A stretch of 64,000 bases of DNA from an uncultured Desulfobacterales bacterium (lineage in GTDB: Bacteria; Desulfobacterota; Desulfobacteria; Desulfobacterales; JAHEIW01), in NCBI GenBank assembly GCA_947259495.1, contig CAMYLV010000001.1, forward strand, positions 62,001 through 126,000, in the 5' to 3' direction. The translations under genes and the position numbers were made by a program. Positions 3,600 through 62,567 of this stretch are shown one piece after another (within the stretch, counting starts at the first letter, position 1; every line of letters begins with the position of its first letter). The notes under the pieces were generated by a model, which was given only the letters and a program-made list of their open reading frames with translations, did no database searches and was not told the DNA's origin.

Positions 3600-4178
3600 T
3601 TATACGGGCGCGGCGAAGCCTTCGCAATGAATCCTGGGCTCCGGCCGGGGTGGTGCCTTTACGTCACCTTTGGGTTTTCCGAGCGGAATTATCGCTGCAA
3701 TTTCGAGATTTTCCGGAATATTTAATGCAGCCTGCATTTTCTCAGGATCAAACCAGGTAAACCACAGTGTGCCCAATCCATATTCTGCGGCGGCCAGCAT
3801 CATGTTTTCAACGCAGGCAGATGCAGCCTGCAAGGCGCCGTGTTTCTGGTTAAAAAAATCTCCCAGCCCTTTTTTAGTCGGATCAAACACCACGGCGATG
3901 ATCACGGGGGCTTGCTCTAAAAAAGTCATATCGTATTTAGCCGCAAACCCCGGTCCGCCGCCGTCGAGAACAGCCTGTTTGGCCGCTTCGGAAACTTCTC
4001 TGATTTGTGCTTTTACTTTAGCGTCGGTGATGATGATATATTCCCAGGGCAGAGCATTCATGGGGCTTGGCGCCCACTGGCCGGCTTCCATGATAGCTGC
4101 CAGTTGATCCTGCGGGACGGGGTCGGGTTCAAATGCACGGCAACTTCTTCTGGATTTGACAACTTCCTTAAATTCCAT
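3600..4178 (-). CDS. Nitroreductase-family FMN oxidoreductase
   Basis: 192 residues, the usual length for a dimeric FMN-dependent nitroreductase-like enzyme using NAD(P)H. FMN-binding features are the N-terminal SRRSCRAFEP and APSPMNALPW, and the C-terminal AAEYGLGTLWFTWFDP plus IIPLGKPKG. The start is preceded by GGAGGAAT at good spacing. It is separated from the GalT-like gene upstream by only 15 bases, so the two are probably co-transcribed. The physiological substrate is unknown; the family acts on quinones, nitro compounds and other electron acceptors. Confidence 0.87.
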   Translation of the reverse strand: MEFKEVVKSRRSCRAFEPDPVPQDQLAAIMEAGQWAPSPMNALPWEYIIITDAKVKAQIREVSEAAKQAVLDGGGPGFAAKYDMTFLEQAPVIIAVVFDPTKKGLGDFFNQKHGALQAASACVENMMLAAAEYGLGTLWFTWFDPEKMQAALNIPENLEIAAIIPLGKPKGDVKAPPRPEPRIHCEGFAAPV

Positions 4179-4193
4179 AATGGTATTCCTCCT

Positions 4194-5216
4194 CTAAAAT
4201 TCGGGTTTCAGCTTCTCATTGATTTCCTCCGGAAAAGCCATACAGATGCCTTCATTGTAAAGATTCCGCAAAGCACCGATATCCGGGGTGCCCAGCGCCT
4301 GATTAAAAAACGTGCGCGGCGAAAACACCAGATGAAATCGCGCATGGTCATCACCCCGGGCGCCGGGGAAAAAGTTCATATTAAAATTGTAAACGCCCAT
4401 TTTATCATAGGCGCTCATCAGCCTGGTCAGCCCTTGCGCAAGGTCCTCAACATCATCGTCGGTCATCTCCAGCGTGCAGTTTACCGCATCGACAACTGCG
4501 GCAACGTCTCCGGCGACTCCCAATGGCGCGTATACGGTCAGCCAGCTGGAGCGGCCGATTTTGCCCAGAAAGCGTTTGCCGTCGGCTTTTTCCGTTTGCA
4601 CTAGGTCGTCCCAGTAATTGGTTCCCTTTTGTTGGAAATACGTTTTCGCACAGTTGAGTTCCTCCTGCAACAGATTGGGTGCGTAAGCAGAGGCAAACAC
4701 CTGTAAATGCGGATGAATGAGCGAACTGCCGGAAGCGGGCATATAATTCCAGTTAATCAGGTGGTATACGGATTCGGGATGATTGATCTCATCAATCCTG
4801 CGAAAAAACCGGATCGCCAGACGAAATGCATCTACGATGTGGCCGGGGGTAATTTCAGTCATGGGAATGAAATGCTGACTGCTGAAGGTGGCACACGCGC
4901 CCAGGCTGTCATAAGGGGCGATATTCGGAAACAAAACTTTATCGTCCAAAACCATACGACCTTCGGGAACAATTTCTTCCGGGAAACAGGGAGTGACCTT
5001 CATAACCTTATCGGGGCAAAACGGACAGTATTCCTGAGTTCCGGCCACCAGTTGGTCGAAATCCGGCTTTTCCCATTTTAAGGGCATGAAATGACAGATG
5101 CGCGAGGTCCTTCCGGTAAGGGGGTCTTTGCGGATTTCGCTGGGGATCGTTTTGCGCTCCATGTTGTTATTGGGGTCAAGAATAACGGTCTCCCGTTCAA
5201 TAGCTTCAAACTTCAT
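4194..5216 (-). CDS. Galactose-1-phosphate uridylyltransferase-like HIT-superfamily nucleotidyltransferase
   Basis: 340 residues, about GalT length. The active-site motif is seen as LIHPHLQVF, with the second histidine of HPH the expected nucleotidylated residue, and CPFCPDK resembles the zinc-binding Cys pair. In the family a hexose-1-phosphate is exchanged with a nucleotide sugar through a uridylyl-His (or adenylyl-His) intermediate. There is no galK or galE nearby; the neighbour is a nitroreductase, so a Leloir role is not supported by context. An ADP-sugar phosphorylase-like activity is an alternative. RBS GGAGG lies just upstream of the ATG at 5216. Confidence 0.75.
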   Translation of the reverse strand: MKFEAIERETVILDPNNNMERKTIPSEIRKDPLTGRTSRICHFMPLKWEKPDFDQLVAGTQEYCPFCPDKVMKVTPCFPEEIVPEGRMVLDDKVLFPNIAPYDSLGACATFSSQHFIPMTEITPGHIVDAFRLAIRFFRRIDEINHPESVYHLINWNYMPASGSSLIHPHLQVFASAYAPNLLQEELNCAKTYFQQKGTNYWDDLVQTEKADGKRFLGKIGRSSWLTVYAPLGVAGDVAAVVDAVNCTLEMTDDDVEDLAQGLTRLMSAYDKMGVYNFNMNFFPGARGDDHARFHLVFSPRTFFNQALGTPDIGALRNLYNEGICMAFPEEINEKLKPEF

Positions 5217-5538
5217 ACCGCCTCCTTTTGTTGAGTTAATCGTAGAAGTAAGTTAGCCAGAATAAACCCAGAGATCAATACTTACTTTTTCAGGCTTCAT
5301 TCTCCTGGTTCAAAGGTTCAACGTTCAAAGGTTCAAAGGTTAGAATACAGAAGACAGAGTTAAAAGGACAGATGACAGTTGCAGACTGGAAAATAGGGCA
5401 GTCCTCTATGGCTGTCAGGAGCCGGCGGCCTGAAGCCGGTTTTAGATTAATTTTAATATCTGGCGGCAAACCCGGTACACAGGTAACTTAAACCCTGAAC
5501 CCTGAACCTTTGAACCCTGAACCCCTGAACCTTTATGC
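5217..5538. repeat. Intergenic region with 7-bp-period degenerate repeats
   Basis: 322 bases without a gene. Two repeat types are visible. The first has period GTTCAAAG or GTTCAGG and occurs at about 5306-5343, then again in the opposite sense at about 5491-5533 (runs of GAACCCT and GAACCTTT). The second is an AGACAGA or GACAGAT type at about 5344-5390. Both repeat with a 7-base step. The same two types recur in other gaps of this window (7608-7711, 24778-24925, 26353-26470, 34866-34998, 40741-40812). Confidence 0.7.
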
Positions 5539-6198
5539 TCAATAGAACATTTCAGTGTACACCAGAGAATCGGAAAAGCTTTCGTCGATGAGCAAGGTGA
5601 CATCCCGAATCATCTCGCGCCGGCCGCTAAGGTAAAAATCGTAGACTGCGGGTGGTAAATGCTTTTCAAGATATTCGGTGACCTTTCCTCTAAAAGCATT
5701 TGCAGGCAACTTATTTGACTCTGTCAGACAGGGAACATATGTCCGGGCGCTTTGCTGAAATTGGGTAGCGTAATATAGATCCTCCGGCAAACGGACGCCG
5801 TGCAAAAGCGTAAAATCGGTTAAACCCGATCGGGCCATCGAACAGAACGGCGCGATGCCGGTGCCGGTGGCCACAAACACCGCCGGTCGGGGGGAGGGTT
5901 TGTAGGTAAAATAACCGTGAGGACCATGAATGGAAAGGGATGTGCCAATTTCAGCGGTACTCAGAAAGCCAGAAACTTTGCCGCCGGTCACGTTGCGGAT
6001 ACAAAGGTTAAGGTCAGATTCCTTTGGCGCTGAGACAATGGAGTAATCTCTTTCGTGTCCACCGCAGCTTAAGCGGATCCGTTGCCCCGGCTCAAATTCA
6101 AAACCCGAAGGGGTGCTTATAATGATCCCAAAGGATTTATTCGAAAGCCATTGGCGTTTCAGCAGAACGGCCGCATACGTTGATACGTGGGTTTTCAA
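5539..6198 (-). CDS. Ferredoxin-NAD(P)H-reductase-like FAD oxidoreductase
   Basis: 219 residues with an FAD-binding beta-barrel followed by an NAD(P)-binding domain. The FAD motif is ERDYSIVSAP (RxYS type) near residue 50, a second FAD/phosphate motif is SIHGPHGYF near 95, and the nucleotide-binding motif VATGTGIAPF is near 110. The protein ends with YTEMFY, the aromatic-ended C-terminus common in the FNR fold. No 2Fe-2S cysteine cluster is present, so it is a stand-alone flavin reductase module. It is 13 bases downstream of the cobalamin adenosyltransferase gene; a role as flavin-dependent cob(II)alamin reductant for that enzyme is attractive but inferred from position only. Confidence 0.82.
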   Translation of the reverse strand: MKTHVSTYAAVLLKRQWLSNKSFGIIISTPSGFEFEPGQRIRLSCGGHERDYSIVSAPKESDLNLCIRNVTGGKVSGFLSTAEIGTSLSIHGPHGYFTYKPSPRPAVFVATGTGIAPFCSMARSGLTDFTLLHGVRLPEDLYYATQFQQSARTYVPCLTESNKLPANAFRGKVTEYLEKHLPPAVYDFYLSGRREMIRDVTLLIDESFSDSLVYTEMFY

Positions 6199-6211
6199 CT
6201 TCGAAATGACC

Positions 6212-6778
6212 TCAGGATCTCCAGGGTTTATCTAAAACGCCATGAATACGATTGCATTGACGGGCAAACACAAAGAGATAATCCGACAGTCGATTTAAGA
6301 AGACTAACAGACGCTGATACGGCACGGTGACTTTCGCTTTCATAGATTGGTCGATCAGCGGCACAACCTTGCGTTCACACCGGCGACAAACTGTTCGCGC
6401 CACATGGGCCCAGGCAGCCGTGATGTGGCCGCCTGGCAATATAAAAGCGTTCAGCCCTGGCAACTCATTTTCGTATCGGTCAATGGCTTTTTCTAAAATG
6501 GCAATCTGTTCCGCAGATATTTCCTGGAGGGAATCTATTGCGGCAGAGTCCGGGCGGGTGGCAAGCCAGGCACCCGCTTGAAAAAGGTCGGATTGAATCT
6601 GCTGCAGCTCGGCAACCAGTTCTTCTTTTGCAGAAAGATGGACCGCTAGGACGCCCAGAATTGAGTTGAGCTCGTCTAAATCACCATAGGCATCGATTCT
6701 GGCGTCCGCTTTTGATACGCGTTCTCCGCTAAATAAACTGGTTTTGCCTTTATCTCCGGTACCGGTGTAGATTGTCAT
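6212..6778 (-). CDS. Cob(I)alamin adenosyltransferase, PduO type
   Basis: 188 residues. Transfers the adenosyl group of ATP to cob(I)alamin, giving adenosylcobalamin. The N-terminal ATP-binding signature MTIYTGTGDKGKTSLF is clear, followed by the YGDLDELNS motif and the C-terminal arginine-rich ARTVCRRCERK and LNRLSDYLFV motifs of this trimeric family. Its upstream side abuts the 79-bp inverted-repeat element (6787-6865), and the flavin oxidoreductase follows 13 bases downstream, so these two genes form a likely operon. Adenosylcobalamin would serve mutases such as methylmalonyl-CoA mutase elsewhere in the genome. Confidence 0.92.
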   Translation of the reverse strand: MTIYTGTGDKGKTSLFSGERVSKADARIDAYGDLDELNSILGVLAVHLSAKEELVAELQQIQSDLFQAGAWLATRPDSAAIDSLQEISAEQIAILEKAIDRYENELPGLNAFILPGGHITAAWAHVARTVCRRCERKVVPLIDQSMKAKVTVPYQRLLVFLNRLSDYLFVFARQCNRIHGVLDKPWRS

Positions 6779-6786
6779 TGTTTTCT

Positions 6787-6865
6787 ACCTGAATCTTGCA
6801 TGAAAATTAATGTTATGAAAGCCTCCGACTTGTCCGCCGCTGGAGGGCTCGTGCAAAATTCAGGT
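6787..6865 (+). repeat. 79-bp element with terminal inverted repeats, copy R1
   Basis: The left end ACCTGAATCTTGCA and right end TGCAAAATTCAGGT are inverted repeats matching at 13 of 14 positions. The interior holds a GC-rich hairpin (CCTCCGACTTGTCC, GGAGGGCTCG) and an AT-rich module (GAAAATTAATG). Copies of the same size and orientation lie at 30721-30799 and, internally shortened, at 15876-15935. It fills the gap between the selenoprotein stop codon (6867) and the adenosyltransferase start. Confidence 0.85.
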
Positions 6866-6866
6866 T

Positions 6867-7514
6867 CTAAATTATGGATTTTAATGCTTCGAGCGTATGT
6901 TCCGGTTCGGGTCTTAGCGTATAATCCGCATCAGTTTCTGCGTATCGTATAATGGCCTGCCGGTCAATAATGAATCTGGCTGCCAGTGGCAGTGTCCACG
7001 AATCGTCTGCGTTGTAGCGGGGTAAGTCGATGCCGAACTGCAAATAAATTTTTCTCAAATCTTCCGGCAGCGTATGAACAAGCCCGAACTGGCTCGCAAG
7101 TTGATTGCCCGGATCGCCGAGAATGTGAAATGTAAGGTTTTTGGATTTTATCAGAGCGCGGCTGTATTTTACGATCTGGGGAGAAATGGCGACCAGGTCT
7201 GCCCCCAGGGCGTTGAACTCAGCGATATTACTTTGCAGAGCCTCCAGCTCAAAATTGCAATATGGTCACCAGCGGCCGCGGTAAAAGGTGAGGATCATGA
7301 ACCGTTGCGACAGGATATCTTCTGAGCGCACCATCTTGTTTTCGGCGTTTTCCAACGCGAAATACGGCGCTTTGTCGCCTGTTTTTAAGGCTCGCTCCAG
7401 GATCCCCGAGTTTCGCAGGTTGTCGGTGGCCCGGTGCATCCGCTCTAATACATCACCTGGAGCCTTTTTCTCGAAAATGGCCTTATATTCGTTAAGCTTT
7501 GTTTGTAAGCTCAT
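6867..7514 (-). CDS. Peroxiredoxin-like thiol/selenol oxidoreductase, selenoprotein (UGA = Sec at residue 83)
   Basis: Read through the in-frame TGA at 7266-7268, one 215-residue frame runs from ATG 7514 to TAG 6867 with no other stop. The site reads FYRGRW-U-PYCN, exactly where AhpC/TSA-type Prx-like proteins have the catalytic Cys of FYRG-W-CPYC; the second cysteine (residue 86) is kept. Sequence after the UGA continues the family: VAISPQ near residue 110 and GLVHTLPEDL near 147. RBS AAGGAGAA supports the start. A SECIS-like hairpin follows the UGA (7233-7260), and selA is present at 61113-62567. It would reduce peroxides or act as a thiol oxidoreductase in the cytoplasm. A standard gene caller would split this into two false ORFs or call a pseudogene. 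Confidence 0.9.
7233..7260 (-). promoter_or_regulatory. Candidate bacterial SECIS element downstream of the UGA Sec codon
   Basis: Reading the minus strand, UGA (7268-7266) is followed by an outer stem UUGCA/UGCAA, a 5-nt 5' bulge AUUUU, an inner stem GAGC/GCUC and a 5-nt apical loop UGGAG. The loop begins 19 nt after the UGA and has G at its second position. Bacterial SECIS hairpins recognised by SelB lie immediately 3' of the UGA with a guanine near the start of the apical loop, so position and shape agree. Pairing was done by eye. Confidence 0.7.
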
Positions 7515-8003
7515 CTACGTTCTCCTTTTTCTCAGAGAGTATCCATAATTGCTGCAGAACAAATATTGAAAAAGGTATGCACGACGATCATTAAGTCAAT
7601 AGACTCCGGGTTACAGGTTATAGGTTGCGCGGTGCGGGTTACGAGTTGCGGGTGTAGGGTGTCAGAGGACAGACAACAGAAGACAGGGGACAGAGAACAG
7701 AAGGCAGAGATTTAATGCCCTGACCTAATAATTCGTTTACAGAATTTGTACTTCTGAGAGTCTCAATTTTTTCAGATATATCGCAGATATTAAAGGTCCG
7801 ACCAAAATTTGCATAGGTTGGAGAAATTTGTACTTTTAAGAGAGTCCTAAATGGGTCGCTTTACCGTTTGTTTAAATCAAATGTATTTAGGTAAAGCATA
7901 ATGACTATGAAAAATATGTTTCGGGCGTGTCAAAGATAGTTATTTAAAAACTCAATATCTCTATTATATGATTTTCTATAAACTGCTACACACAAATTGT
8001 AAT
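7515..8003. other. Intergenic region with 7-bp-period repeats and AT-rich sequence
   Basis: 489 bases with no credible gene. About 7608-7711 carries 7-base-step repeats (GGTTACAGGTTATAGGTTG type, then CAGAGGACAGACAACAG type). The remainder is AT-rich and leads into the low-GC accessory block. No terminator with a clear T-run was recognised. Confidence 0.5.
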
Positions 8004-18293: not shown

Positions 18294-18692
18294 TCAGCGC
18301 AGAAAAATATCAATCACATGGCCCGTGGAGGTTTCACACAAACCGTAACCGCCGCTTTTGAACCCGATCACGGTATCAGAAAGTCTGAATTTACATCTCA
18401 TCTCCGTTCCACGGTCGCCGTGCAAAATAGCCTCCGCGTTTCCGGGGAATTCATAAAGCGCCGGGTATTCTTTACCCGATTGCGGCGCCATAGGCTCTGC
18501 AAGGAGCTTGCCCGTAAAATGCTCTCCACCCGGCATTGTTATCTGTATTTGAGCGGATCCGAATTTTTCATCTTCATATGCAAAGTAAACGCGCTTGCCC
18601 GTGTAGCGATCGACACCCTTCAGCGTCCCCGAACAGGACACTGCGACTAAAACCAATAGGGGTATGAAGATCAGCAGGAAATGCCTTCTCAT
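18294..18692 (-). CDS. Small putative lipoprotein
   Basis: 132 residues from the ATG at 18692, which has AAAGGAT upstream; the frame open to 18761 lacks a signal. A signal peptide ends in the lipobox VSCSG (Cys near residue 20). The mature region is small and beta-rich, with GKRVYFAYEDEKFGSAQI, GEHFTGKLLAEP, GDRGTEMRCKF and a conserved-looking SGGYGLCETSTGHVIDIFL ending, similar in layout to short envelope lipoproteins. No specific family recognised. It may be secreted to the inner or outer membrane. Confidence 0.68.
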   Translation of the reverse strand: MRRHFLLIFIPLLVLVAVSCSGTLKGVDRYTGKRVYFAYEDEKFGSAQIQITMPGGEHFTGKLLAEPMAPQSGKEYPALYEFPGNAEAILHGDRGTEMRCKFRLSDTVIGFKSGGYGLCETSTGHVIDIFLR

Positions 18693-18800
18693 TTTTCGAT
18701 CCTTTCCGTTACGGGTGGGAAGTGTTTTGTGGGCTTTGGTTAGTCCCCCAAAGGTCAGCAATGGATTCGAAATTACGCCTAAGGTGTCAATGCGCCAGAC

Positions 18801-19550
18801 TCAACCGGTGGCTTTTTTATATTGATATTGCTTATAAAGGATATACCCGCCCCACACAAGTGCGAATATCATTACAGCACAACCCAGCGTGTGAGCCAGA
18901 TGGGCCAGCGAATGGTCGTAATTAATCCAACCCATTTCTTTGAGAATAAATTCCCAATCGTGAAATCCATAAGGTGATGTGCGGCCGGTATTGCCGCCTA
19001 ATAGCGGCAGAGTAAGCGATCGAGCATCATTGATGTAGGGGGCAAGATCCAAAAAGTTTTCGCCAAACCACCACAGGGCAAATGCGGCAGCGAAGGTATC
19101 GCGGGTTTTGATTAAAAATACGACAAGGCACACCAGCGGCATAAGCAACTGACCGAGGCTGCCGCCCAGGGAGGTCATAAATCCGCCGAAGGGTCGAAAA
19201 ATAAGATGACCGGCTTCATGAAACGGTAGGTTGACAAAGTGCCAGAAAGAGTCCATCGCATAATGGCTCTGCATGGGCATGAGGATAAACTTGAAACTCC
19301 ATATCAAAATTAGAACAAATAAAAGGCTGCGGCCAGCCAAAATCAGCGGATTGGTCTCTGGCTTGATATGGAAAAACAGGTTTTTTGTAAATTCCAAGTG
19401 GTCATTGATTTTTGTTGTCGCAGGGGTCTTATAAACAGTTAATTTAAACTTATTTTCTCTAATTTCCAAGTATTTAGAAAAAATAATGCCACATTTTTGG
19501 CATTCTGCACCTTCAAGCGCCTGTCCAAAACCGCATTTTGGGCAATTCAT
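18801..19550 (-). CDS. Zinc-ribbon membrane protein with HEAGH metalloprotease-like motif
   Basis: 249 residues. The N-terminus is a CxxC...CxxC zinc ribbon (Cys 3, 6, 17, 20). Four to five hydrophobic segments follow. At residues 111-115 the motif FHEAGHLIFRP is a HExxH metal site placed at the start of a membrane helix, as in M50 intramembrane proteases, and the second conserved acidic region could be the FGENFLDLAPYINDARS stretch. It may be a membrane-embedded metallopeptidase with a cytoplasmic zinc ribbon. The substrate is unknown. It is 110 bases upstream of the lipoprotein gene on the same strand. Confidence 0.7.
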   Translation of the reverse strand: MNCPKCGFGQALEGAECQKCGIIFSKYLEIRENKFKLTVYKTPATTKINDHLEFTKNLFFHIKPETNPLILAGRSLLFVLILIWSFKFILMPMQSHYAMDSFWHFVNLPFHEAGHLIFRPFGGFMTSLGGSLGQLLMPLVCLVVFLIKTRDTFAAAFALWWFGENFLDLAPYINDARSLTLPLLGGNTGRTSPYGFHDWEFILKEMGWINYDHSLAHLAHTLGCAVMIFALVWGGYILYKQYQYKKATG

Positions 19551-19608
19551 GATACTAAATCCATTTTATCGGTTATTCATAACAAATTTCGGATGCAGTC
19601 GGTTCAAC

Positions 19609-50689: not shown

Positions 50690-50832
50690 TCATAAGCCTG
50701 TGATACGTTGTGGCACTATTCCTGATTGCCACAAACCTTTTCAGGCTTTTACAATTTAAGCCCGGATTGCATCCTATACCATGTGCGCGAGTAAATGTAG
50801 CCTCCCACTGCTGTGATCCGGGCTTTTTTTAT
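50690..50832 (+). ncRNA. Candidate terminator-ended small RNA (antisense to the moaA 3' end)
   Basis: On the plus strand, hairpin 1 pairs AAGCCTG (50694) with CAGGCTT (50742) and TTGTGGCA (50708) with TGCCACAA (50727); hairpin 2 pairs AAGCCCGGAT (50758-50767) with ATCCGGGCTT (50816-50825) and is followed by seven Ts. A promoter-like sequence lies at 50654. Together they outline a ~140-nt transcript. No protein frame fits. It ends exactly at the moaA stop (50832), so it could base-pair with moaA mRNA. Not recognised as 6S, tmRNA, SRP or a known riboswitch. The hairpins might instead only terminate moaA or the antisense unit. Confidence 0.45.
50758..50830 (+). terminator. Intrinsic terminator facing moaA
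   Basis: Perfect 10-bp arms AAGCCCGGAT and ATCCGGGCTT, 48-nt loop, then TTTTTTT on the plus strand. On the minus strand (moaA direction) no T-run follows, so it is mainly a plus-strand terminator. Confidence 0.6.
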
Positions 50833-51851
50833 TATCCCCCGATGGCGCGCATTTGCCCACAGATGTGTGCCGGCTTTTGGGGGACCAGGTTGTGGTCTGA
50901 AGGTTTGTGATTCACGGCTGTGATAAAGATTTCCGCCAATTCCTGATCCGAACCTTTCTCCCTGAGCGCTTTTTTTAAATTTTCCTGATGGTCGCTTAAC
51001 AGACAGGGTCTGAGTTGGCCGCTGGCGGTTAGCCTGAGCCGATTGCATGTATTGCAGAAGTGCTGGCTGAGTGCCGGAATAAAACCGACTTCGCCTTTTG
51101 CATCCGGGTATCGATAGCGCTGGGCCGGACCGTCGTGGGCGGCTTCCTGGACTGGCACCAGATTTCCCAGGACGCTAATCCGGTCTTTAATTTCCGGGAC
51201 CAGCAAATGAGACTCCGGATTAAAATCGGCTTGGCCGATGGGCATGTATTCGATAAAGCGGACATGAAACGGATATCGAAATGAGAGGCGCGCCATCTCA
51301 ACAAACTCCTCATCGTTGATGCCCCGCAGCGCCACAATATTCAACTTGATCGGGTAAAACCCCATCCGATAGGCTTTTTCGATTCCCCGCCATACCCTTT
51401 CAAATTCATCAAAGCCGGTGATATCGTGATATTTTGATCGATTAAGGGTGTCCAGGCTAATATTGATTCTGGATATGCCGGCCGCTTGAATTTTTTCGAG
51501 GTTATCGTTTAATAAAACCCCGTTGGTGGTCAGGGACACGTCTTTGAGGCCCTCGCTTGCCACCAGTTCGCGTAAAAATTCATAGACGCCTTTTCGGACC
51601 AGCGGTTCGCCGCCGGTAACGCGCACCTTTGAAACGCCCAGCCGGGTGGCCACCCGCACGACCCTTAAAATTTCCTCGTAGGTCAATATATCAGTGTGCG
51701 ACAGTTTGGGAATTAATTCTTGCGGCCCACAATAACGGCATTGCAAGTTGCAACGGTCGGTAATGGATATGCGCAGGTAGTTCAGATGGCGGTTGCAGTT
51801 GTCGATGAGCTTTGAATCGTTGCCAATACTCATTTTCAATTTTTGTTGCAA
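50832..51851 (-). CDS. moaA: GTP 3',8-cyclase MoaA (molybdenum cofactor synthesis)
   Basis: 339 residues from a TTG at 51851 that directly follows the gpgS stop (TGATTG); AGGAGG lies 5 bases before it. Radical-SAM enzyme: the N-terminal cluster binds CNLQCRYC; the C-terminal second cluster is in HFCNTCNRLRLT with CLL downstream; the protein ends QMRAIGG, the usual GG end required for activation. Converts GTP to a cyclic intermediate of molybdopterin. It is coupled to gpgS, an unusual neighbour. An alternative ATG is at 51833. Confidence 0.94.
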   Translation of the reverse strand: MQQKLKMSIGNDSKLIDNCNRHLNYLRISITDRCNLQCRYCGPQELIPKLSHTDILTYEEILRVVRVATRLGVSKVRVTGGEPLVRKGVYEFLRELVASEGLKDVSLTTNGVLLNDNLEKIQAAGISRINISLDTLNRSKYHDITGFDEFERVWRGIEKAYRMGFYPIKLNIVALRGINDEEFVEMARLSFRYPFHVRFIEYMPIGQADFNPESHLLVPEIKDRISVLGNLVPVQEAAHDGPAQRYRYPDAKGEVGFIPALSQHFCNTCNRLRLTASGQLRPCLLSDHQENLKKALREKGSDQELAEIFITAVNHKPSDHNLVPQKPAHICGQMRAIGG

Positions 51852-52856
51852 TCAGGCCTCCTGGAATTTTTGCAGCTGTTGCCGGTCAGTCTTAAACTTT
51901 TCGCAGTATTCGGGGATCTCAATTATCGGGGGCCGCTCGTGACCTTCAATTTTAAAGATGTCGGGCTCATAATGGTCGCGAACAAGATTGTACTGAATCA
52001 TTTCTTCGTAAAGTTCATCTTTTAAATCGATTAATCCTAAGCGAATTTTGCGATTGATAAATGTCTTGAGTATCACAAAGGCCATCCGACCCAGCGCTTT
52101 TGTGTCCTGATTGCGATGGATCCGGCGGTCCAGATCGACCTGAGCCATAACATCCAGGCCCCACTTTTCATAAATATCCATATTCATGCTGGTTTCAACA
52201 CCGTAGCCAATCGGAAACGGTATGCGTTCAAATACATCGCGAAAGCCGGCGTATTCTCCGGAGAGCGGCTGAATTAACTGGGTCAAATCCGGGAAAAATA
52301 GCGAAAACAGGGGGCGGATGACAAGTTCTGTGACCCGGCCGCCGCCGGTCGGGCGCATCCTTTTTTTGCCGATCGAAATCGGCCGGTCGTAAAATGCTTT
52401 TACGAATTTAATGCCGTCGTAAAGCAGCAATGGGCCCAGCAGACCGTAGGCGAAGCGATGATGAATATTTTTTATGTCGGCATCCAGATAGACGATGATA
52501 TCCCCTTTGGTAATATAGAGCGCCTTCCAGAGATTTTCGCCTTTGCCTTTAAATTGTTCCAGATGGGGTAAAATATCGGTGGCTTGATAAACATCAGCAC
52601 CATACTCGCGGGCAATTTCGCGGGTCTTATCGCTTGAACCTGAATCGACCACCACGATTTCATCCAGCAGCGGATAGCGGGTCATCAATTCTGATTTCAT
52701 AATAATGATTTCTTTGGCAATTGTTTTTTCTTCATTGAGCGTCGGCAGACACAGGGATATTTTAAGATTCTTTTTGGCCTTTTCTTCAACCAGCCGGTTT
52801 AGATCCTTAAAATCCGAATAATGAAATGTATTTTTTTCAAGCCATTTATTGTTCAT
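51852..52856 (-). CDS. gpgS: Glucosyl-3-phosphoglycerate synthase (GT81 family)
   Basis: 334 residues from the ATG at 52856 (frame open to 52868). Family motifs: LCLPTLNEEKTIAKEI near residue 37, EIVVVDSGSSDKT, the GKGENLWKALYITKGDI stretch, the metal-binding VYLDADIKNIH (DxD), RMRPTGGGRVTELV, and LSGEYAGFRDVFE. Transfers glucose from a nucleotide sugar to 3-phosphoglycerate, the first step to glucosylglycerate, a compatible solute. It overlaps the upstream M20-like gene by 11 bases; the phosphatase (GpgP) is not in the window. Mannosyl-transfer is a possible alternative. Confidence 0.92.
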   Translation of the reverse strand: MNNKWLEKNTFHYSDFKDLNRLVEEKAKKNLKISLCLPTLNEEKTIAKEIIIMKSELMTRYPLLDEIVVVDSGSSDKTREIAREYGADVYQATDILPHLEQFKGKGENLWKALYITKGDIIVYLDADIKNIHHRFAYGLLGPLLLYDGIKFVKAFYDRPISIGKKRMRPTGGGRVTELVIRPLFSLFFPDLTQLIQPLSGEYAGFRDVFERIPFPIGYGVETSMNMDIYEKWGLDVMAQVDLDRRIHRNQDTKALGRMAFVILKTFINRKIRLGLIDLKDELYEEMIQYNLVRDHYEPDIFKIEGHERPPIIEIPEYCEKFKTDRQQLQKFQEA

Positions 52857-54006
52857 CACACACCCCACCGTCGATTGCTTTCAACACACCGATGACCTGC
52901 GCAATCCCCTGATACATGGGTTCAATCTCCATGGTGGCATTTTCCATATAGCGGTTCTCGCCATAGGTAATTCCCAGCGTAACTGCCGGAATCTTACGGG
53001 AAAGAAAAATCGACAGCGCAGATTCTGTCGGCTTGCTGACTGGTTTTATACCCAAAGTGTTCAAGACCTCAGCAGCCTGTTTAACCAGCGGGTGGTTATG
53101 TTTGAGACGCGAAGCCTTCAAGTTACTGATGGTTTTTAAATTAATGTTAGCTTCATGTCTGTGACCGATACCTTCAACAATGTCTCGAATTTCACTGAAA
53201 AGGTTTTTGACGACCTTGTATGAGTCACTGCGTATCTCGAACCCCAGATTCGCTTCGGGGGCCAATTTGCCATGATTGGCACCACCGTTAATGCGGCCGA
53301 TAACGATTCGCGACCGGGGTCGCTGGGAAATCTTCAAATTCATTATTTCGTTGATGACTTCATTTAAAATGATAATCGCATTGGGTGTGTATTCTCTCAG
53401 CCGATTGCCTTCCTCAGAAATACTGCACCCGATTTCACCCCGGATCATCCCATCCGAGTAATAATTGAGCCGGCCGAGCTCGACACCCTCAATACAAATT
53501 GCGCCTCTGATAGGGGTGGGCCATGTTTTTAAAAGATGTCTGACACCCCGCAGATTTCCTTTGCCGATGGACTGAATGGTTCCGGCCAGCACGATATCGG
53601 ATTCAAAAACAATATCCAATTCCTTAAATATCGCCGGCAGGGACGTCATGACGCCGACACCCAACGAATTGTCCAGGATTCCGGCGCCCGTGATGGCGTT
53701 TTCTTTGATCGTGTAATTCGGTCGACGATCTTTTTCATAAAATGTATCCATGTGGGCCAGAACAAAAATCGGCGGCTTGCTGGAATCCGTTCCGCGAATA
53801 ATACCAATCGGGTTGCGATAGCCATCGGTGGTGATTTCATCCACCTGGAATTCGGCCAGGCGCTCCATGAACAATTTGCTGCGCTTTTTTTCCCTGAATG
53901 TCGGCGCAGGTGTCTGGCCGATCAATACGATATTGGTAATGATGATTTCCCGCAGCGATTTTATCTGATCGACAAGGCTTGGTAATTGTTCGAGAATGTT
54001 CTTCAT
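52846..54006 (-). CDS. M20-family peptidase-like protein with altered catalytic Glu pair
   Basis: 386 residues in the M20/M42 fold. Metal ligand motifs are AHMDTFY (His85, Asp87), GAGILDNSLG (Asp112) and CIEGVELG (Glu173); the C-terminal His ligand may lie in RLKHNHPLV or PTESALS. The bimetal catalytic pair normally reads GTVGEEGLGDLRG; here the aligned residues 142-154 read GTIQSIGKGNLRG, so both Glu are gone. The enzyme may be inactive or have another chemistry. Overlap of 11 bases with gpgS suggests a shared function, possibly a regulator or a glucosylglycerate-related deacylase-like binding protein (inference). Confidence 0.8.
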   Translation of the reverse strand: MKNILEQLPSLVDQIKSLREIIITNIVLIGQTPAPTFREKKRSKLFMERLAEFQVDEITTDGYRNPIGIIRGTDSSKPPIFVLAHMDTFYEKDRRPNYTIKENAITGAGILDNSLGVGVMTSLPAIFKELDIVFESDIVLAGTIQSIGKGNLRGVRHLLKTWPTPIRGAICIEGVELGRLNYYSDGMIRGEIGCSISEEGNRLREYTPNAIIILNEVINEIMNLKISQRPRSRIVIGRINGGANHGKLAPEANLGFEIRSDSYKVVKNLFSEIRDIVEGIGHRHEANINLKTISNLKASRLKHNHPLVKQAAEVLNTLGIKPVSKPTESALSIFLSRKIPAVTLGITYGENRYMENATMEIEPMYQGIAQVIGVLKAIDGGVCDEQ

Positions 54007-61112: not shown

Positions 61113-62567
61113 TCAAGCCTTCATTATCCGATTTTCAAATGCAATTTCAATAGTTGCGTACTCATCTTCCTGGATCGTTCGGGGATCCATGACAAATAAA
61201 TCGTCTTCAATTCTACCAATAATTGGCGGGTTGTTGTTCCGCATCATTTTTTCCACAGTGTTTGGTGAGAGACCATCAATTTGGATGCCAACGCACAAAC
61301 TGGGGAGGTCGATGAGGGGTAATGCACCCCCACCGGTTTTGGAAGCGCTCTCCAGAAGCCGAATGTGCATGCGGGGGCCGCCGATTCGCTTTAAGCGATC
61401 AGCAAAGCCCTGGGCGCGGTCTTGAATCTCCGGCAGCGGAAGCATGATCATGCGCAATGTAGGTATAGTGCGCGCCGCTTTCTCTTCATCACGATATAAT
61501 CGCAAGGTGCCCTCCAGAGCGGCCAGGGTGAGTTTGTCAATCCGCAGCGCCCGCGTAATCGGATTTTTCTTGATCGCGTCAATGACCCTCTTTTTCCCGA
61601 CGATAATGCCGGCTTGAGGACCACCAAGGAGCTTGTCGCCGCTAAAGGCAACCACATCCGCTCCAGCGGTCACGGATTCCTGCACGGTGGGTTCTTTTAG
61701 CAGGCCAAACCTCGAAAAATCGATAAACGTTCCACTGCCCAGATCCTCCATGACCGGCAATTGATGCGCTGCGCCTAAATCTACGAGTTCACGTAGTGAT
61801 ACCTCCGCTGTGAAGCCGACGACGTTGTAGTTGCTGGTGTGGACTTTTAAAAGCAAGCCGGTGTTCGGGCCGATGGCGTTTTCATAATCCCTTAGATGCG
61901 TGCGGTTGGTGGTTCCGACCTCTTTCAGGATACCGCCGCTTTTAGCCATCACATCCGGCACGCGGAAGGAGCCGCCAATTTCAACGAGTTCACCGCGAGA
62001 GACAATCACCTCTCTGTCCCGCGCGAGGGTTTCCAGACTTAAAAGGACCGCACCGGCATTGTTGTTGACCACCAGGGCTGCTTCAGCCCCGCTGATTTCA
62101 CAGATCAACTCCTCGACGCTGCTATAGCGCGATCCCCTCCTGCCAGCGGCCAGATCATATTCCAGGTTGGAATAGCGGCCGGCAATCGTTACCAGATTGT
62201 CAATAACCTCAGGCGCCAGCAGCGAGCGGCCCAGATTCGTATGGACCACGATACCGGTTGCATTAATCGTGCGTTTTAGATTCGGTGTCATGGCCTGGTG
62301 AACCACGTTTTTAACGACCTCGATCATCCGTGCGTCCGACACGCTGTCTTCATTCATGGCGGGATCATTGTCGAGGATTTGCTGTCGCCTGTGGCCAACC
62401 ACCTTGCGGATTGAATTGACCACAACCGTGTGCGGGATGCTTTCAATGAAGGTTTCTTTGGCGACAAGGGCCATCAGGGAATCCACAGCCGGAAGCGCGC
62501 GCAGCAGGGCCTGCTGGTCCGGGCTGATGGGCACCAATTTTTTCTTTTGTAATTTTGCTTTGGTCAT
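61113..62567 (-). CDS. selA: L-seryl-tRNA(Sec) selenium transferase SelA
   Basis: 484 residues. PLP enzyme that converts Ser-tRNA(Sec) to selenocysteinyl-tRNA(Sec). PLP lysine in VVAFSGDKLLGGPQAGI; NATGIVVHTNLGRSLL, RRGSRYSSVEELICEISGAEAALVVNNNAGAVLL and KVHTSNYNVVGFTAEV are typical SelA motifs. Its presence, with the Sec-UGA peroxiredoxin at 6867-7514, shows an active selenocysteine system. selB and the tRNA(Sec) gene are not seen in the window; a TPR protein follows where selB often sits. Confidence 0.96.
   Translation of the reverse strand: MTKAKLQKKKLVPISPDQQALLRALPAVDSLMALVAKETFIESIPHTVVVNSIRKVVGHRRQQILDNDPAMNEDSVSDARMIEVVKNVVHQAMTPNLKRTINATGIVVHTNLGRSLLAPEVIDNLVTIAGRYSNLEYDLAAGRRGSRYSSVEELICEISGAEAALVVNNNAGAVLLSLETLARDREVIVSRGELVEIGGSFRVPDVMAKSGGILKEVGTTNRTHLRDYENAIGPNTGLLLKVHTSNYNVVGFTAEVSLRELVDLGAAHQLPVMEDLGSGTFIDFSRFGLLKEPTVQESVTAGADVVAFSGDKLLGGPQAGIIVGKKRVIDAIKKNPITRALRIDKLTLAALEGTLRLYRDEEKAARTIPTLRMIMLPLPEIQDRAQGFADRLKRIGGPRMHIRLLESASKTGGGALPLIDLPSLCVGIQIDGLSPNTVEKMMRNNNPPIIGRIEDDLFVMDPRTIQEDEYATIEIAFENRIMKA

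Follow-up and report, generated by a model that had tools for sequence, protein, structure and literature searches.

A UGA codon that splits a peroxiredoxin-like gene of an uncultured Desulfobacterales bacterium is almost certainly a selenocysteine (Sec) codon, with a probability of roughly 0.95 as judged from the sequence, its homologues and the selenocysteine machinery of the genome. This reading is supported because the selABCD set is complete, 88 homologues carry either UGA or a cysteine codon at this one position, and the SECIS hairpin that follows is specific to the Sec genes. With UGA as a Sec codon, two apparently broken frames become one whole redox protein. The gene lies in a 64,000-nucleotide stretch of DNA, here called the window, and has the following elements:

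6867–7514, minus strand (7514→6867): putative Prx-like UxxC selenoprotein gene, 215 codons and the stop TAG, open when TGA is read as U
7266–7268, minus strand: UGA, almost certainly a selenocysteine codon (codon 83), within the motif U-P-Y-C
7522–7526, minus strand: Shine-Dalgarno motif AGGAG, 7 nt upstream of the ATG, recognized from the sequence

The frame, for which the earlier note stated no strand, runs on the minus strand from the ATG at 7514–7512 to the terminal TAG at 6869–6867. Two same-frame ORFs separated by a lone TGA had been described, giving 215 codons without another stop when bridged, and the sequence bears this out: UGA (7268–7266), in the context FYRGRW-U-PYCNFEL, is the sole stop inside the frame.

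Fold and active site

The bridged protein scores 90 bits against PF00578 (AhpC-TSA, cut-off 26) over residues 46–191, so the domain spans the TGA and the profile search proposed earlier gives a match above the cut-off; the score against PF08534 is 52 bits. The predicted model, with a mean pLDDT of 96.6, has the Prx fold according to Foldseek, the nearest solved folds being Bcp4 (E 9.7e-15), BcpB and AhpE; the best matches also include ResA-type oxidoreductases. The fold is alike to that of the Bcp/AhpE peroxiredoxins (3hjp, 5epf, 1xvw; E about 1e-14 to 4e-12, TM by target 0.86–0.89), but the Pro and Thr of their PxxxTxxC motif are replaced by Arg and Sec, and the 215-residue family has extra N-terminal helices. 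The ResA-type enzymes (1su9, 3c71) have a CxxC-type motif and the fold in common with the present protein, although the fold match is weaker (TM by query about 0.54) and the protein shows no apparent leader sequence or membrane anchor. As no leader is apparent, it is probably cytosolic.

In alignments to solved Prx structures, Sec83 takes the position of the TxxC Thr, and Cys86 that of the peroxidatic Cys. UPYC aligns with TxxC of 2ywn, which puts UxxC in place of TxxU/TxxC. R79 occupies the Pro column of PxxxTxxC, so that R79 and U83 are found where a peroxiredoxin proper has Pro and Thr. An alignment of 33 homologues has 16 invariant columns, which include Y78, R79, G80, W82, C/U83, C86, N87 and E89. 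The earlier statement that the TGA replaces the catalytic Cys holds by thioredoxin logic, in which the site is the N-terminal residue of CxxC, but fails by peroxiredoxin logic, in which it is the Thr position.

A true Sec-peroxiredoxin, that is, a peroxidase of the TxxU type like PrxU with Sec as its peroxidatic residue, would agree with the PF00578 and PF08534 matches and with Bcp4, BcpB and AhpE as the nearest folds. However, the motif is UxxC and not TxxU, with Sec and R79 on the Thr and Pro of PxxxTxxC, and the NCBIfam PrxU model (NF040737) gives 24.3 bits, far below its cut-off of 270. The motif alignment and this score disfavour such an enzyme, which is rather improbable. With Thr changed to Sec, Cys86 kept at the peroxidatic position and Pro changed to Arg, the best reading of sequence and model is a Prx-folded protein with a thioredoxin-like active site. 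The SelL-related redox proteins (NF040769), like PrxU, belong to the same superfamily and are Sec-related, and a score of 38.2 bits, far below the cut-off of 120, places the protein outside that family.

Prx-like thiol:disulfide oxidoreductase selenoproteins with PF00578 and a UxxC or UxxU motif have been described (PMC9312934, PMC13188914, PMC1794560), and UxxC members were reported in deltaproteobacteria, e.g. Syntrophus, Desulfotalea and Geobacter (PMC1794560). The Prx-like selenoproteins from the Sargasso Sea are only distantly homologous to Prx and carry a thioredoxin-like UXXC where TXXU would stand (PMC1088965), and GOS Prx-like 1 combines pfam00578 with UxxC (PMC2398784). The present protein shares Pfam domain and motif with the published UxxC members, e.g. 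Geobacter sulfurreducens WP_010940744.1, a likeness by domain and motif, and matches the Sargasso Sea and GOS proteins by description, having the same UXXC for TXXU. The earlier note was right that AhpC/TSA-type Prx-like selenoproteins are known; the class is already described, and the gene, which is well conserved, adds a member to this known class of bacterial selenoproteins and does not found another. The best reading of the protein is a Prx-like thiol:disulfide oxidoreductase that contains Sec (PF00578, UxxC), family and motif pointing to the redox role. By the UxxC/CxxC pattern of the family, Sec83, as a selenolate, would be the residue that attacks the substrate, a disulfide or a peroxide; Cys86, as the resolving thiol, would then form a Se-S bond with it, and this bond would be re-reduced by a donor of the thioredoxin type.

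Codon 83 among homologues

In 88 homologues, with identities to the window protein as low as 33%, codon 83 is TGA in 57 and TGC or TGT in 31, and no other codon occurs; the 57 include an identical pair (L020/L048) and two copies from the source genome. The alignment with Cys homologues that had been suggested therefore places their TGT/TGC exactly at the UGA. At the order level a match was found in 40 of 194 genomes, and the matches aligned near full length contain exactly one stop, TGA, in all except G190, which has none. At the phylum level 28 of 395 genomes gave a match, with one TGA-free form (L097) that has TGT at the site. The Cys homologues from the GTDB genome scan belong to Pseudomonadota, Nitrospirota and Bacteroidota. 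With Cys entered for Sec, an 87-row tree requires 3 changes of the Sec/Cys label, compared with 26 for shuffled labels.

A truncated homologue (L109, G045:C55:3374-3814) has the TGA and a SECIS-like hairpin, together with a TAA and a second TGA nearby, and may from its sequence be a decayed, decaying or frameshifted copy.

Between members of the genus, dN/dS downstream of the TGA is 0.11–0.18, with differences mostly at third positions, which indicates that translation continues beyond the UGA. Purifying selection acts on both sides of the UGA, and the two halves are similarly conserved. Any Sec UGA can terminate under scarce selenium, which would suit a regulated stop, where low selenium yields a functional 82-residue product and Sec read-through the full protein. 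In the predicted model, however, the first 82 residues end just short of the active site and are without most of the fold, and both halves are conserved alike, which makes a functional short product very unlikely. The Cys homologues, whose TGC/TGT is one base from TGA, also invite the explanation that an ordinary Cys gene has suffered a nonsense mutation, or a sequencing or assembly error, and is a pseudogene. This is refuted by conservation and has next to no probability: the same TGA stands at the same codon in the 57 homologues, in 4 of 4 genomes of the genus and in a second paralogue of the source genome (G000:C26:15016-15657), and purifying selection persists beyond it.

The SECIS hairpin and the selenocysteine machinery

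Selenocysteine at codon 83 would involve three further features of the window:

7238–7250, minus strand: bacterial SECIS apical hairpin GAGC-UGGAG-GCUC, conserved in Sec homologues and fitting the published bSECIS geometry
7225–7263, minus strand: possible outer SECIS helix AUAUUGC/GUAAUAU, prediction only (minimum-energy fold -10 kcal/mol, z -0.99)
61113–62567, minus strand: selA, L-seryl-tRNA(Sec) selenium transferase (TIGR00474, 615 bits)

The hairpin is made of GAGC (7250–7247), the loop UGGAG (7246–7242) and GCUC (7241–7238). It was said to start 19 nt after the UGA, which is correct for the loop but not for the stem, which starts after 15 nt; its location at the expected bacterial SECIS place agrees with the geometry of the published bSECIS model (PMC13188914). 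Measured against that model, the loop is UGGAG or GGA, the stem 4–5 bp and the distance 19–20 nt.

In the first set of homologues, a UGG loop closed by 4 or more base pairs is kept in 26 of 31 Sec genes, and in 0 of 30 Cys genes a UGG-loop hairpin is found. Shuffling, in which codons were exchanged for synonymous ones according to the usage of each gene, gave an expected mean of 0.70 and a maximum of 6 in 2000 rounds, compared with the 26 observed. Among 45 distinct main-class sequences the four apical pairs are formed in 91–100%, the lower pairs are variable, and the fraction of paired cells is 0.88, as opposed to 0.34–0.52 when the alignment is slid. One double change, C-G to U-A, occurs at the apical stem (L034). 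The outer helix receives no support from the comparison among homologues.

Variants of the hairpin are also seen. In L024 and L025 the stem has 8 bp and the loop, of 7 nt, still contains UGGAA, while in L047, L094-L096, L098, L100 and L111 the hairpin is displaced by about one codon and has a GG-containing loop region; GAGCUGC-GGUCAUU-GCAGCUC, from another clade, exemplifies the re-registered type (L047, L094, L095, L096, L100, L111). Most Sec genes outside the UGGAR-loop pattern form re-registered hairpins at the same UGA, and one (L045) has no hairpin under strict bSECIS geometry.

With constraints taken from PMC13188914, the bSECIS geometry is found in 56 of 57 Sec and 19 of 31 Cys homologues, and together with an MFE at the threshold of -7.5 or lower in 54 Sec and 14 Cys homologues. 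The geometric model alone is permissive, as many Cys homologues pass, and it is therefore the conservation test that carries weight. The MFE is -10 for 46 nt and -8.4 for 36 nt around the hairpin; the short apical hairpin alone gives -4.1 to -5.3 kcal/mol, and the threshold is reached only with the flanks. Folding of the single sequence was rejected as proof of a SECIS, z being about -1 relative to dinucleotide shuffles, and an Rfam scan of the window gave nothing at the gathering threshold.

The genome, which is 97% complete with 4.4 Mb in 69 contigs, encodes SelA in the same window, as had been noted, and in a whole-genome profile search its selA, selB and selD exceed the curated cut-offs. 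A single tRNA-Sec lies above the Rfam cut-off (75.2 bits) and is identified by ARAGORN as tRNA-SeC with the anticodon TCA (UCA). Thus selB and selC, which the earlier note advised looking for, are both present, and their absence is excluded as an objection to the Sec reading. From these parts, SelB would bind the UGGAG-loop hairpin after codon 83 and deliver Sec-tRNA(Sec) to the UGA. An altered code in which UGA means Trp or some other amino acid, or near-cognate read-through, would explain why the frame is open through the UGA, but is rejected on conservation and hardly conceivable, since homologues show Cys and never Trp at the site, Trp being invariant one position upstream, several relatives end their copies of the gene with UGA, the SECIS is conserved, and the genome has SelB and a tRNA-Sec with the anticodon UCA.

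The selD gene of the genome (L080, G000:C2:224486-225409) has its own in-frame TGA, because of which its product, selenophosphate synthetase, is probably a selenoprotein itself.

Gene neighbourhood and related genes

Downstream of the selenoprotein gene are found:

6212–6778, minus strand: PduO-type cob(I)alamin adenosyltransferase, the next gene downstream (PF01923, 198 bits)
5539–6198, minus strand: FAD/NAD(P)-binding oxidoreductase, following pduO (PF00970, PF00175)

The minus-strand region 3600–7514 comprises the selenoprotein gene, pduO, the flavin oxidoreductase, a galT-like and a nitroreductase/BluB-like gene, an arrangement that is partly conserved in close relatives. pduO is near the selenoprotein gene in L019, L020, L048, L023 and L024, and the oxidoreductase adjoins pduO in L019, L020, L048 and L024; in L019 the downstream neighbour genes start only some 10–20 nt away. 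This pduO/flavin oxidoreductase neighbourhood was not found when more distant Sec relatives were examined, so that as a functional clue it is only a hint. It is conceivable, though unlikely, that the 215-residue family with FYRGxWUPYCNxEL makes up a distinct Sec subfamily and has a physiological role of its own, e.g. in a cobalamin adenosyltransferase/flavin reductase pathway of anaerobes, in which the SECIS register has changed at least once while the UGA stayed fixed.

Other redoxin genes of the source genome also contain an in-frame TGA. A redoxin-domain gene on the minus strand (L118, G000:C26:26700-28300) has it in the UxxC motif FFQDWUPGCQ and is, from its sequence, probably another selenoprotein gene. 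An AhpC/TSA-like gene on the plus strand (L119, G000:C25:44500-47000) has it in the UPFC motif of FSMYUPFCQ and is followed by two more redoxin genes with TGA-free active sites. When the window was scanned for additional frames split by a single UGA, others turned up, but a redox-like UxxC is present in none of them; of two long ones compared with Pfam, 50832–52880 proved to be two adjacent ordinary genes, and 18294–19565 has no Pfam match.

Standard gene calling gives an 82-residue fragment for this 215-codon gene, and no NCBIfam model is above its cut-off for the bridged protein, so the gene is likely to be missed or misannotated in many genomes of the phylum. The 57 Sec and 31 Cys homologues provide a clean case of SECIS constraint embedded in a coding sequence, including hairpins shifted in register.
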